Shown piece by piece: positions 30,359 to 46,373 of a stretch of 64,000 nt of DNA. The DNA is taken from assembly GCF_011806425.1 (NCBI RefSeq), contig NZ_JAATOV010000004.1:1-64000 (forward strand), written 5' to 3'. Origin of the DNA: Thalassospira lucentensis. Lineage in GTDB: Bacteria; Pseudomonadota; Alphaproteobacteria; Rhodospirillales; Thalassospiraceae. Within the stretch, counting starts at the first letter, position 1; every line of letters starts with the position of its first letter. Both the position numbers and the translations under genes were made by a program. The notes under the pieces were generated by a model. The model did not search any database, was not told the DNA's origin, and worked only from the letters and a program-made list of their open reading frames with translations.

Positions 30359-30790
30359 CTACTTCTTCTTCTTGAACATTTGCAGCATGCGCTGGGCAAC
30401 AATGAAGCCGCCAAAGATATTGACCGACGCCAGCACAACAGCAAGGAAGCCCATGACCTTGGACAGGTTCATGTCAACCGGGCCGGACGCCAGAAGCGCA
30501 CCAACAATGATCACCGACGAAATGGCATTGGTCACCGCCATCAAGGGCGAATGAAGTGCCGGGGTTACTTTCCACACAACGTAATAGCCAACAAAGCAGG
30601 CCAGAACGAAAACCGTAAGCCCCATCACCGTCGGGCTGACACCCGTACTGTGAACGGTGGTTGTTACGGTGTTGGCCGCGTCCCCCGCACCATTGGCCAG
30701 CTTATCGGCCAACTGTGCAGCCTTTTCGGCCATTCCAAGGGCTGCATCGCGCAGCTCATTGGCATTTTGGGTTACCGACTGATCAGCCAT
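30359..30790 (-). CDS. pntAB: NAD(P) transhydrogenase subunit alpha, part 2 (membrane part)
   Basis: A 143-residue membrane subunit with three to four helices ([73 protein letters not shown]). It corresponds to the C-terminal membrane part of the alpha chain in E. coli. An N-terminal Ala-rich amphipathic stretch (about 1-50) is extra. ATG 30790 has ggagg upstream and overlaps the pntAA stop codon by 8 nt, so translation is coupled. The split alpha chain is as in Rhodospirillum rubrum. Confidence 0.93.
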
Positions 30791-31946
30791 TTGCGACCTC
30801 CTCGCCACCGAATTTCGGGTGAACGATCTTTCCATCGTGGGTCAGGCGGGTTTCTTTGATGATCTGATCTTCGCCATCAAAGACCAATGCGCCCTTTTCC
30901 GTATCGACAGAAAGCGTGATGAAGTTCAAAAGATTCTTGGCATACATCGCGGTTGCATCGGTTGCGACCGCACTTGTGATGTTTTCCGGGCCAATCAATT
31001 TCACGCCGTTATCCGTCGTGAAGGTCTGGCCAAGTTTCACACCCGCCACATTGCCACCGCGTTCGGCTGCCAAATCAATGATCACCGAACCCGGTTTCAT
31101 GCCTGCCACCATATCGGCGGTGACAATTTCCGGGGCCGGACGGCCGGGGATAAGCGCTGTTGTGATCACAACATCGGTTTTCGCCAGAACTTCCTTAAGC
31201 TTATCGGCCTGCTTTTTCTTGTAGTCGTCCGACATTTCCTTGGCATAGCCACCGGATGTCTCGGCATCTTTTGCACTGTCGTCGTCGACTTCAATAAACG
31301 TCCCGCCAAGCGACTGAACCTGTTCCTTAACCGCCGGGCGCACATCAAATGCGGACACCACAGCACCAAGGCGCTTGGCAGTTGCAATCGCCTGCAAACC
31401 GGCAACACCGGCCCCAACCACAACAACGCGCGCCGGGGCAAGTGTGCCCGCTGCGGTCATCATCATCGGGTAAATGCGGCCAAATTCATGGGCGGCGTCA
31501 AGCACCGCGCGATAGCCCGCAAGGTTGGACTGCGACGACAAAACATCCATCGACTGTGCGCGTGAAATACGCGGCATCAATTCCATGGAATAGCCATCGA
31601 CACCGGCCTTGGCCATGGCATCAAGAAGCTCTTTGCGGTCAAATGGTTCAAGCAGGGCCACAACCGCGGCCCCCTTTTTATAAGCACTAAGCTCATTGGT
31701 TTTACCGTCAATGACAGGTGGGCGCACCTTAAAGATGACATCGGCATCCTTAACGGTGGTTTTCATTGTCTTGGCAATGGTTGCCCCGGCATCGACAAAA
31801 CGATCGTCGGGTATGGCGGCATCTATTCCGGCGCCAGCTTCAATTGCAACGTCAAACCCCAGTGATTTCAGCTTTTTGACTGTCTCTGGTGTGACGGCAA
31901 CGCGCTTCTCACCGGGCCATATTTCCTTTGGAACGGCCAGTTTCAT
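30783..31946 (-). CDS. pntAA: NAD(P) transhydrogenase subunit alpha, part 1 (NAD-binding)
   Basis: Soluble domain I of transhydrogenase, which binds NAD(H) and exchanges hydride with PntB. The 387 residues begin [21 protein letters not shown], related to alanine dehydrogenase. They contain [25 protein letters not shown] and the Rossmann motif [28 protein letters not shown] (about 170-197). ATG 31946 has aaggagg 9 nt upstream. First gene of the pnt operon; a structured RNA with a terminator lies 130 nt upstream (32076-32220). Confidence 0.95.
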
Positions 31947-32075
31947 CGCGTTCGACCTCCTTCCCTTAAATCCTATGTTACGCATGGTGTTTTTTATTAT
32001 TTACCGTGTGATCGGTATCAGGGCATCACAGTGCGCCCTGTTTGCTTCCGATTACAAGCTTCCCTTGCCAGATAA

Positions 32076-32117
32076 AGAAAAAGGCGGTTCTTCCAGCTTA
32101 CGCAGAAGAAACCGCCC
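32076..32117 (-). terminator. Intrinsic terminator in the upstream region of pntAA
   Basis: Minus strand: ggcggtttcttc (32116-32105) pairs with gaagaaccgcc (32093-32083) with one bulge, followed by five Ts. No plausible gene precedes it on this strand. It lies 130 nt before the pntAA start codon. Confidence 0.7.
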
Positions 32118-32220
32118 ACTTTCCCACCACGCATTCCAAGACAGTTAAGTCTTAGCGACACATCAGGTCCCACCCGCCATCGGTGCTCAGGACAAACATT
32201 CAATGGCGCCCTTCTGTGTC
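32076..32220 (-). ncRNA. Candidate structured RNA upstream of the pnt operon (leader or small RNA)
   Basis: By eye the minus strand can form an outer helix GACACA/TGTGTC (32220-32215 with 32162-32157). Inside is a helix CGCCAT/ATGGCG (32208-32203 with 32180-32175). The loop GTCC (32193-32190) can pair with downstream GGAC (32170-32167), giving a pseudoknot. A hairpin AAGAC/GTCTT (32153-32149 with 32142-32138) and an intrinsic terminator follow. This layout is like a metabolite-sensing riboswitch with an expression platform, or a free small RNA. A 61-codon open frame crosses it but looks unlike protein. No known riboswitch class is recognised. Confidence 0.4.
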
Positions 32221-32684
32221 TGCGTTGAAAGCAAGATGCGTTTTCCGCTTGATAACCTCAATATCAAAAAACATCGAAAAATCACTTTAACCAAATAACG
32301 GTTTATAATTCTCGAAAATAAATATGTGCGATTTTCCACACATTTTATATCCCCTACGGAACAGGTCTTTAAACCCCGGCCCGCACAATAGATCTTTGAT
32401 ATTGGTCAGTTTCCCCCATTTTACCCCCACGCAAGAAGTGAACATTATCTTACAAATAAACGCATAAGTCTTCATTTATCATGCCAACACCACCCAGAAC
32501 GCGATAGGTTTTCGAACAAAAAGACGACGAAAAAAAATGCCGCGGGCACGAACACCTGCGGCATTTTGTCATGATAAGGGATCATTTCACGGACACTAGC
32601 ACACCAAAAGCATGCCGATTCCGGACACAGAAAACACATAAACTGCGAATCTAATCCCCAAAATCGCAACCGCGCTTTTTAAAG
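32221..32684. other. AT-rich intergenic region upstream of the pnt leader
   Basis: About 460 bp. It contains a TATAAA-like element at 32302-32307 (minus) that could start the structured RNA. A TTGATA/TATCAA inverted repeat with 7-bp spacer lies at about 32247-32265. A 62-codon AT-rich minus frame (32287-32475) has no good ribosome-binding site; I do not call it a gene. The ABC1-kinase terminator is at the right end. Confidence 0.5.
32529..32568 (-). terminator. Rho-independent terminator after the pepF-ABC1 pair
   Basis: Stem atgccgc / gcggcat (32537-32564); on the minus strand it is followed by eight Ts. It lies about 115 nt beyond the ABC1 kinase stop codon. Confidence 0.8.
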
Positions 32685-34055
32685 TTATGGCCTTTCCAAC
32701 CCAACCAACTTCAACGCCGCGTCCTGATCAGCGGCAAGTTTGGCGGGATCAAAGTCCCCAACCAGATCATTGAAAATCTGATACCAGTTCACATGCGCAT
32801 CAAGGCGCAGGAACACCGCACCAAGTCCAACTGCCGCCCGATCCACCAGAACAAACTCACGCGGCGGCTTTACCCCGCCCACGGATTTCAGTTCCTTGTG
32901 CACTTTGGCCGCCACTTCCGCGCCATAGGCAACAGAATTGGTTTCGCCCATCTTGCGTTTGCGATCATCCAAAATCGGGCCATAGACAAAGCTGGCCCAG
33001 ATGTTCAGCACATCAATCAGTTCGCGTGACGGATTTTCAAAGCCCCAGCTTTCATACGCCGAAACAGCCTTTTCCTCGTCCCCATCGCGAAGTGCTTCAT
33101 AAAGGGTCAGCACCGCATTGACGAATTCGGGTTTGAAAATACGGATACAGCCAAAATCAAGCAGGTTCACCGACAGATCATCGCGCAGCGTATAGTTGCC
33201 CAAATGCGGATCGCCATGAATAACGCCATAGCGATAAAACGGCACATACCATGCGCGGAACATGTTCAGCGCCACTTGATTGCGCGCATCCTGATCGGCA
33301 TCACTGTCCAAAAAGCTTTGGAATTTCTGCCCGCTTTGCCACGTCATGGTCAGCAAACGGCTGGTGGTTAAATCCTCCACCGGTTCGGGCACATGCACGG
33401 TGTTTTCGGTCGCCAGCATATGGCGATACAGCCGCATGTTTTTGGCTTCGCGTGTGTAATCAAGTTCTTCGCGCAGGCGTTCGGACAATTCATCTTGGAT
33501 ATTTTGCGCGTCAATCGCACTGTCATAGCGCTTATAAATCGCAAAGGCCGCGCGAAGCTGTTTTAGGTCGGCCTCAACCGTTGCCGACATATCGGGATAT
33601 TGCAGTTTGCACGCAACATCGCGCCCATCGGGCAAGGTCGCCTTATGCACCTGGCCAAGGGATGCGGCCGCAACGGCTTCGCGGCTAAAATCGGTAAAGC
33701 TTGATTGCCATCCCGCCCCCAATTCGCTGCGCATGCGGCGCTTGACAAACAGCCACCCCATGCTCGGCGCATCGGCCTGAAGCGATGCCAAGGCCTCGGT
33801 ATATTCCTTGGGCAGGGCATCGGGGATGCTCGATAAGATTTGCGCAACCTTCATCAACGGGCCCTTAAGCCCGCCAAGGGCTGAGGTCAGCTCGGCGGCG
33901 TATTTCGCATGATCGATTTCGCCGCCGAACACTTTCCCGGTGGCAAGGCGCGCAGCCAGCTTGCTGGCCGACGCCCCCACCCGTGCGTAACGACGAACCC
34001 GTCCGCCAAATCGGTTTTCTTCGTTTGGCGCGGTATAATCGTCGTCGTTACTCAT
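32685..34055 (-). CDS. ABC1/AarF/UbiB family atypical kinase
   Basis: A 456-residue protein of the ABC1 (ADCK/UbiB) family, atypical kinases or ATPases that support ubiquinone synthesis or lipid handling. Visible family features are KVAQILSSIPDALPKEYTEALASLQADAPSM (the KxGQ-type N-terminal motif, here KVAQ), AAASLGQVHKATLPDGRDVACKLQYPD (Ala-rich loop and the VAIK-type Lys), ELDYTREAKNM, VIHGDPHLGNYTLRDD (catalytic loop) and LLDFGCIR (metal Asp). There is no C-terminal membrane helix pair as in E. coli UbiB, so the ubiB symbol is not given. Start ATG is 1 nt after the pepF stop, so the two are coupled. Confidence 0.9.
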   Translation of the reverse strand: MSNDDDYTAPNEENRFGGRVRRYARVGASASKLAARLATGKVFGGEIDHAKYAAELTSALGGLKGPLMKVAQILSSIPDALPKEYTEALASLQADAPSMGWLFVKRRMRSELGAGWQSSFTDFSREAVAAASLGQVHKATLPDGRDVACKLQYPDMSATVEADLKQLRAAFAIYKRYDSAIDAQNIQDELSERLREELDYTREAKNMRLYRHMLATENTVHVPEPVEDLTTSRLLTMTWQSGQKFQSFLDSDADQDARNQVALNMFRAWYVPFYRYGVIHGDPHLGNYTLRDDLSVNLLDFGCIRIFKPEFVNAVLTLYEALRDGDEEKAVSAYESWGFENPSRELIDVLNIWASFVYGPILDDRKRKMGETNSVAYGAEVAAKVHKELKSVGGVKPPREFVLVDRAAVGLGAVFLRLDAHVNWYQIFNDLVGDFDPAKLAADQDAALKLVGLERP

Positions 34056-45497: not shown

Positions 45498-46373
45498 TCA
45501 GGCCGAAACGGGTTCGGTCCCTTCATCAGATGACGCATCGCCACCTTCGCCGTCTTCACGGCCGGCTGCCCGGCTGCGTCCACGACGCGCTGTCGGATGA
45601 CGGCCACGTGTGCGCGCGGTACCTGCTGCGGCACGGCGCGGCTTTTTCTTTTCTTCGCCGTCCTGACCTGCATCGGTGCTGGCGTCTGGCGCTGCATTAT
45701 CTGCATCAGATGCTGCTGCCGCGGGCGTTGCGATTTCTGCTGGCGCATCCGCATTGGCACCCGCCACTGCAATCACGTCATCAGATGCCGGGGCCGCATC
45801 GGCATTTGCCGGTTTGCGGGGACGGCGTGCATCGGTACGACGGGCACGCGGTGCGCGTTTCGGCTTTTCTTCACCACCATCAGCAGACGCCGCAACGGTA
45901 TTTTCCTGGCTGGCATTGTCGCCGCCATTATTGTCCCGGTTGGTGTTGTCGCTGTTTGGTGCGCCGTTGGCTGCATCGTCAGATGCCGCAACCGTTTCGG
46001 TGTTTGCGCCCTGCCCATCGCGTTGATTGGGCTGGTTATCACCGCGATCGTCGCGATTGTTACGCTGATTACGTTGACGGTTGTTGTTGTTATTGCTGTT
46101 ATCGCCGCCGCGTTCTTCGCGACGTTGATTTTCCCATTCCTGCGCAGCTTGCAAGATACGGTAGTAATGTTCAGCATGCTGATAATAGTTTTCAGCCAGA
46201 ACCGGATCGTCAGTACAATCCTTGGCCAGCGAAACATATTTCTCGTGAACCTGTTGCGCGTTACCGCGAACACGTCCATCTGGACCATTACTATCAAAAT
46301 TCTGAAATTTTGGATTTACTGGACGTTTATTAGGCTGTTGCCGTCCGCGCGGACGTTTATTGTTATTTCTCAT
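45498..46373 (-). CDS. DUF4167 domain protein, RNA-binding-like basic protein
   Basis: A 291-residue alphaproteobacterial protein. The N-terminus has the conserved DUF4167 block: basic RPRGRQQPN segment, then FDSNGPDGRVRGNAQQVHEKYVSLAKDCTDDPVLAENYYQHAEHYYRIL (about 25-75). The rest is low complexity: Asn/Arg runs (about 88-115), then Ala/Asp/Glu stretches and Arg-rich patches (PRARRTDARRPRKP, GTARTRGRHPTARRGRSRAAGRE). It lies near prmC/prfA, as is usual for this family in Rhodospirillales. RNA or nucleoid binding is suggested by composition only. The start has a weak Shine-Dalgarno. Confidence 0.88.
   Translation of the reverse strand: MRNNNKRPRGRQQPNKRPVNPKFQNFDSNGPDGRVRGNAQQVHEKYVSLAKDCTDDPVLAENYYQHAEHYYRILQAAQEWENQRREERGGDNSNNNNNRQRNQRNNRDDRGDNQPNQRDGQGANTETVAASDDAANGAPNSDNTNRDNNGGDNASQENTVAASADGGEEKPKRAPRARRTDARRPRKPANADAAPASDDVIAVAGANADAPAEIATPAAAASDADNAAPDASTDAGQDGEEKKKPRRAAAGTARTRGRHPTARRGRSRAAGREDGEGGDASSDEGTEPVSA

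Follow-up and report, generated by a model that had tools for sequence, protein, structure and literature searches.

A structured RNA upstream of pntA in Thalassospira, absent from Rfam and apparently confined to the genus

RNA elements described upstream of pntA

The NAD+-I riboswitch occurs in a cofactor-related gene context, and RNA elements have also been proposed in front of pntA, which encodes the alpha subunit of transhydrogenase. In 'Candidatus Pelagibacter ubique', an RNA candidate with an especially conserved loop precedes pntA (PMC2704228), and the Streptomyces pntA motif WRC-36-2 is described as a weak riboswitch candidate before the same gene (PMC11109978). In a paper on small RNAs of Rickettsia conorii, pntAB is among the predicted targets chosen for testing. 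Here, we analyzed a stretch of 64,000 nucleotides from Thalassospira lucentensis (contig NZ_JAATOV010000004.1; referred to below as the window), in which a structured RNA of ~149 nt is located on the minus strand at 32226-32077, with pntA (30783-31946, minus strand; Pfam domains AlaDh_PNT_N and AlaDh_PNT_C) as its downstream neighbor.

Like the Pelagibacter element, the Thalassospira RNA is alphaproteobacterial, lies before pntA, and carries a highly conserved loop. The accessible text on the Pelagibacter element describes two consecutive stems, followed by a further ~60 bp ahead of the gene, and mentions no terminator (PMC2704228), whereas the Thalassospira RNA has a three-way junction and a terminator 95 to 215 nt before pntA, which sets the two apart by description only. 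WRC-36-2 is likewise an RNA candidate before pntA, but as far as its available description goes it is found in Streptomyces only, and the ribosome-binding site of pntA is part of its P2 stem (PMC11109978); the Thalassospira RNA ends 95 to 215 nt before the start codon in 25/25 genomes, again a distinction by description.

The first-pass annotation, made from the sequence alone, had recognized no known RNA family here, and this agrees with our search of the whole window, in which no Rfam 15 family reached its gathering score (0 matches). A permissive scan of positions 31500 to 32900 returned six matches at E values up to 10. The NAD+-I riboswitch was not among these six, nor was the NAD+-II riboswitch, which shares a cofactor-related gene context with our RNA (PMC7749635). 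The mir-1249 match touching the RNA had an E value of 5.1 (15.8 bits, against a gathering score of 83), and a FopS match covered the first two bases of the RNA only (E = 4.1, 19.6 bits against 56). An STnc550 match farther upstream (32398-32483; E = 0.015), with 21.1 bits where the gathering score is 48, was taken as chance. 6S RNA (RF00013), which the Thalassospira RNA resembles in length, was also set aside, the one match in this genome lying elsewhere, on contig C10 (138317-138476, 82.8 bits). Among the open-access papers listed, covered through titles and abstract openings and with most subscription journals outside, no description of the Thalassospira RNA was found. The RNA shares with bacterial small regulatory RNAs a single intergenic copy, a candidate promoter, a terminator, and an invariant unpaired loop, and it is more structured than typical mRNA-pairing small RNAs. 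Altogether, it represents a new, apparently genus-restricted RNA family, absent from Rfam and of a familiar kind.

Fold and covariation of the Thalassospira RNA

A structured RNA ending in a terminator had been proposed at this locus, and sequence, folding, and covariation in 25 genomes confirm it: the structured RNA upstream of pntA is real and well supported. It occupies 32077-32226 of the minus strand, as a block kept in 25/25 aligned genomes and marked by covariation, with a predicted 5' end at A32226 that is placed solely by promoter spacing. Folded as a single sequence (32060-32225), the region reached -65 kcal/mol, with a z score of -3.2 against dinucleotide shuffles, of which 2/200 were equally stable. 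All the nested helices named at first were located. GACACA (32220-32215) pairs with TGTGTC (32162-32157) to form P1; CGCCAT/ATGGCG belongs to the 8-bp helix P3, formed by CGCCATTG (32208-32201) and CGATGGCG (32182-32175); and AAGAC/GTCTT is part of hairpin P4 (CTAAGAC/GTCTTGG, 32155-32136), a helix of at most 7 bp that joins 32155-32149 with 32142-32136. In P2, the 5' side (32213-32210), mainly CAGG among relatives, pairs with CCTG (32167-32164), although the window itself has a mismatch at the first pair. One helix had been missed and was spotted by eye: the outer helix ACGCA/TGCGT, which joins 32225-32221 to 32133-32129 and closes a three-way junction. Its inclusion extends the RNA by a few bases beyond the limits first reported.

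Among the 25 aligned genomes, mean identity over 15-nt stretches is 0.92 to 1.0 across most of the RNA and lower, at 0.76 to 0.87, in the 3' strands of P2 and P1, in P4, and in the terminator loop. Past the terminator it falls to 0.61 to 0.73 and then recovers at the start of pntA, giving the conserved block sharp edges. Coding within the RNA is unsupported, because indels of one and two bases occur inside the element.

Covariation was assessed on an alignment of 25 sequences (23 distinct, 155 columns), using as the structure model the helices of the first-pass annotation plus the outer helix. Standard pairs occupied 98.2% of 1086 cells, with both-sided changes at 7 pairs, and pairing dropped to 31 to 45% when the partners were offset by 1 to 3 columns. 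Among 500 shuffles, between 0 and 5 reached each of the five measures taken, although shared ancestry by itself is enough to outdo this control. Because the structure had been derived from the same sequences, events were also counted by parsimony on a pntA tree, which gave 12 double compensatory, 24 single pair-keeping, and 10 breaking changes, compared to 0 to 2 double changes in six slid controls; compensatory changes in relatives, named at the outset as the check to make, are thus present. Four of the double changes fall in P1, one in P2 (A-U to G-C), four in P3 (with 10 single pair-keeping changes and 1 breaking change), and three in P4 (with 7 breaking changes); none were counted in the outer helix, in the pseudoknot, or in the terminator. 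One pair of P4 is unformed in 9/23 sequences. In the outer helix, 97.4% of cells are paired and 3/5 pairs are invariant, the last pair being unformed in 3/23 sequences. RNAalifold recovered the same nested helices from this alignment, except that the P3 loop formed a weak hairpin instead of the pseudoknot and that the terminator stem reached into the T run. P1, P2, P3, and P4 are therefore backed by covariation, as the fold of a transcription-terminating riboswitch should be, and the outer helix by invariant pairing alone.

It is scarcely credible that the locus contains no functional RNA and that its inverted repeats arose by chance in a conserved promoter region. The ~240 nt of DNA upstream are likewise conserved and contain short palindromes, as such a reading would have it, but 12 compensatory changes against 0 to 2 in the slid controls point to RNA structure, and the 1- and 2-base indels inside the element argue against a coding cause of its conservation.

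The part of the early description that found no support beyond chance is a pseudoknot between GTCC in the loop (32193-32190) and GGAC downstream (32170-32167). The letters are present, and the 4-bp match lengthens to GTCCTG/TGGGAC if G-U pairs are allowed; when loop and partner were shuffled, runs as long arose in 20% of 5000 trials under Watson-Crick pairing and in 21% with G-U included. All 6/6 pairs are invariant among the 23 distinct sequences, and since these columns never vary they are neutral, neither for nor against the pairing, which would cost P2 one base pair. The whole loop, TGTTTGTCCTGAGCA (32198-32184), is invariant in 15/15 columns of the 25 sequences. Such invariance indicates that the loop matters and does not tell its pairing partner; the loop is a possible pseudoknot partner of 32172-32167 or a possible contact surface. 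The linker GGTGGGAAAGTG (32128-32117) is G-rich and nearly invariant, with 11/12 columns unchanged in the 25 sequences.

An alternative nested helix of seven pairs was also seen at 32213-32188 on the minus strand (alignment columns 14-20 with 33-39), and each of its pairs can form in 88% or more of the 25 sequences. It would compete with P2, P3, and the pseudoknot and is a possible second fold.

Candidate promoter, terminator, and linkage to pntA

Upstream of the RNA, TTGAGG (32261-32256) and CATCTT (32238-32233) on the minus strand form a candidate promoter (32261-32233), fixed in 25/25 genomes as TTGNNN plus CATCTT, with 17 nt between the hexamers and 6 nt separating the second from the RNA start. 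CATCTT matches the E. coli -10 consensus poorly, and a consensus promoter scan found no promoter in the region. We take this pair as the putative promoter of the RNA, a choice tempered by the weak -10 and the negative scan. Separately, a stretch of ~240 nt upstream of the promoter-like element is conserved, at an identity of ~0.6 to 0.85, and includes three short palindromic boxes seen by eye at 32363-32287 (minus strand), which in relatives are close to TTCC-N4-GGAA, TGTGCG-N6-CGCACA, and TTAAC-N9-GTTAA; these are possibly binding sites for regulators.

At the other end lies the intrinsic terminator noted in the first-pass annotation, P5 with its T run (32116-32078), which consists of a stem joining 32116-32103 to 32095-32083 and a T run at 32082-32078. 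The terminator was found in 25/25 genomes by sequence and computed folding, its stem ranging from -18.1 to -21.8 kcal/mol, so that the RNA has a predicted terminator of its own, as expected of a small RNA gene. The 12-nt linker sets the terminator hairpin off from the junction. No conserved antiterminator emerged among alternative pairings of the terminator arms, for which conservation in at least 88% of the 25 sequences was required; the best conserved alternative had -8.0 kcal/mol, compared to -13.8 kcal/mol for nine stem pairs, both energies being those of the window's sequence.

The distance from the T run to the pntA start, first given as 130 nt, is 131 nt in the window. Across 25/25 genomes, the terminator lies 95 to 215 nt (median, 156) before the start codon, and the spacer past the terminator varies in sequence as well as in length. 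By eye, no conserved pntA promoter was recognized in this spacer of the aligned loci. The loop and linker paired with the pntA start region no better than shuffled sequences in all 25 genomes (0/25; 60 shuffles each; lowest fraction, 0.17). pntA adjoins the RNA in 29/29 genus genomes, 25 by alignment and 4 by coordinates, an adjacency that does not in itself amount to control of the gene. On the upstream side, the nearest same-strand gene in the window encodes an ABC1 kinase (end at 32685, ~460 nt away); the ABC1 kinase gene is the immediate upstream gene in 21/25 genomes, and another open reading frame takes this place in the other 4 (L020, L023, L024, and L025).

The first-pass annotation had left the choice between a pnt leader and an independent small RNA undecided. 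Our evidence leans to the latter, and the 29/29 linkage to pntA keeps the former alive. A separate transcript is indicated by the fixed promoter-like pair, the strong terminator, the absence of a conserved antiterminator, and the variable spacer, and on these sequence features we moderately favor a separate gene for a small structured RNA. RNA polymerase would start at about A32226 from the TTGAGG-N17-CATCTT promoter, and the ~149-nt RNA would fold into a three-way junction of the outer helix, a P1-P2-P3 arm bearing the invariant 15-nt loop, and the P4 hairpin. Transcription would then end at the strong terminator before pntA, which itself would be transcribed from its own promoter farther downstream, and the invariant loop and G-rich linker would serve as working surfaces, for mRNA pairing or protein binding.

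The strict linkage to pntA points against a separate transcript and toward a leader, since a free-standing RNA needs no such neighbor and pntA follows in 29/29 genomes, including the 4/25 in which the upstream gene differs. For this reason, the main rival is a cis-acting pnt leader, an attenuator or riboswitch, in which the promoter at 32261-32233 would drive pntA and the fold, together with a ligand or protein, would set read-through at the terminator; we regard it as a tentative and less probable reading. It would also account for the lack of a visible pntA promoter in the spacer, which, together with the weak -10 and the lack of a target among the loop and linker copies described below, weighs against a separate small RNA, and it has precedents in the RNA elements proposed before pntA in Pelagibacter (PMC2704228) and Streptomyces (PMC11109978). 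Against a leader stand the absence of a conserved antiterminator, the 12-nt linker between the terminator hairpin and the junction, and a post-terminator spacer that varies in length and sequence. A special form of this idea, a genus-specific pseudoknotted aptamer that would sense NAD(P)(H) and tune read-through into the transhydrogenase genes without a classical antiterminator, appears very unlikely. An intermediate arrangement, in which a terminated small RNA with a function of its own would be accompanied by partial, constitutive read-through into the pnt mRNA without ligand control, is compatible with strict synteny and with a strong terminator that lacks a conserved antiterminator, and we hold it to be unlikely.

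Distribution of the RNA and search for partners

By DNA search, the RNA was found in 25/25 genomes of the genus (T. lucentensis included) and in 0/16 genomes of other families, and a covariance model gave one match each in 29/29 genus genomes and, at E values up to 0.001, none in 268 genomes from the rest of the order. An exact pattern of two conserved stretches, searched in 84,980 species with one genome each, hit 22 contigs, 21 from Thalassospira and 1 a metagenome contig labelled 'Rhodospirillales'. A draw of 385 genomes from the class included two genus members, which matched, and gave weak matches in 5/383 others (E up to 0.1); in the order and class searches, only 8 to 10 candidates per genome were scored, under stricter filters, so that weak matches can be lost.

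The best match outside the genus in the class draw lies in a 0.9-Mb alphaproteobacterial genome (G482, locus L148, 1501-1609, plus strand; 32.1 bits, E = 1.2e-6). It keeps the linker and the terminator, along with portions of P1, P4, and the outer helix, without the P2-P3 core and the loop, ~50 model positions being replaced by 11 bases, and by eye no PntA was seen among the five surrounding open reading frames listed. With the core and loop missing and no PntA-like reading frame, the match was not counted as a homologue; it is probably due to chance and may be a remote relative.

Of 69 pntA loci from the order outside the genus, 43 were scored with filters off (40 and then 3), and none of the 43 gave a convincing match. 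The best of the first 40 reached 10.6 bits (E = 0.078), and the best of the further 3 reached 12.2 bits (E = 0.0029; L213, 222-330, minus strand) in a genome of another family. This last match lies on the pntA strand, ~120 to 230 nt before pntA. It was rejected because it overlaps the 3' end of an upstream open reading frame, contains neither the loop nor the linker sequence, and is no more stable than its shuffled versions (z = -0.73), and it is probably a chance match. The lack of a convincing match at these 43 loci also speaks against a leader, since a wider distribution might be anticipated for a general cofactor sensor.

If the RNA is a separate small RNA, the loop and linker would be the parts most likely to meet a partner, and copies of both were sought outside the RNA gene in the 29 genus genomes. 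A 12-nt loop pattern had 17 exact copies in 12/29 genomes, compared to 2 for the reversed control, whereas the linker pattern had 9 copies in 8/29 genomes, compared to 28 in its control. Five of the 17 loop copies, from 5/29 genomes, represent a single site within a DUF4167 leader, in the same sense as in the RNA; the remaining 12 lie at scattered positions, one of them a coding site that two close relatives have in common. In 9 of these 12, the longest open frame is in the RNA's own sense or near-equal on both strands. Most copies thus have the loop's own sense, not its complement, in the longest open frame, and several read Phe-Val-Leu-Ser; the excess over the control is probably a matter of codon usage. 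No small RNA target was found through loop or linker copies in the 29 genomes. The link between the loop and the DUF4167 leader was rejected, because the shared letters are not conserved even though the leader is conserved in 29/29 aligned loci. Nine tags picked from the tables of a report on Thalassospira 'miRNA' reads (PMC6413936) gave 0 matches to the 25 loci.

The DUF4167 gene (start at 46373) deserves mention in its own right. The ~250 nt upstream of it (46620-46374, minus strand) are strongly conserved in 29/29 genus loci, and a hairpin CGGGC/GCCCG in this stretch has changed in a compensatory way, to CAGGC/GCCTG, in 5 genomes. No Rfam match was obtained over this leader, and the stretch is a candidate for another structured leader.

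Altogether, the analysis adds to this marine genus a well-supported structured RNA that is absent from Rfam and whose fold is defined enough for direct tests. If the RNA is a separate transcript, as we favor, its invariant loop and linker would point to a partner. If it instead controls pnt, it would be the third reported RNA element before pntA, after those of Pelagibacter and Streptomyces, and would suggest that RNA control of transhydrogenase arose more than once.
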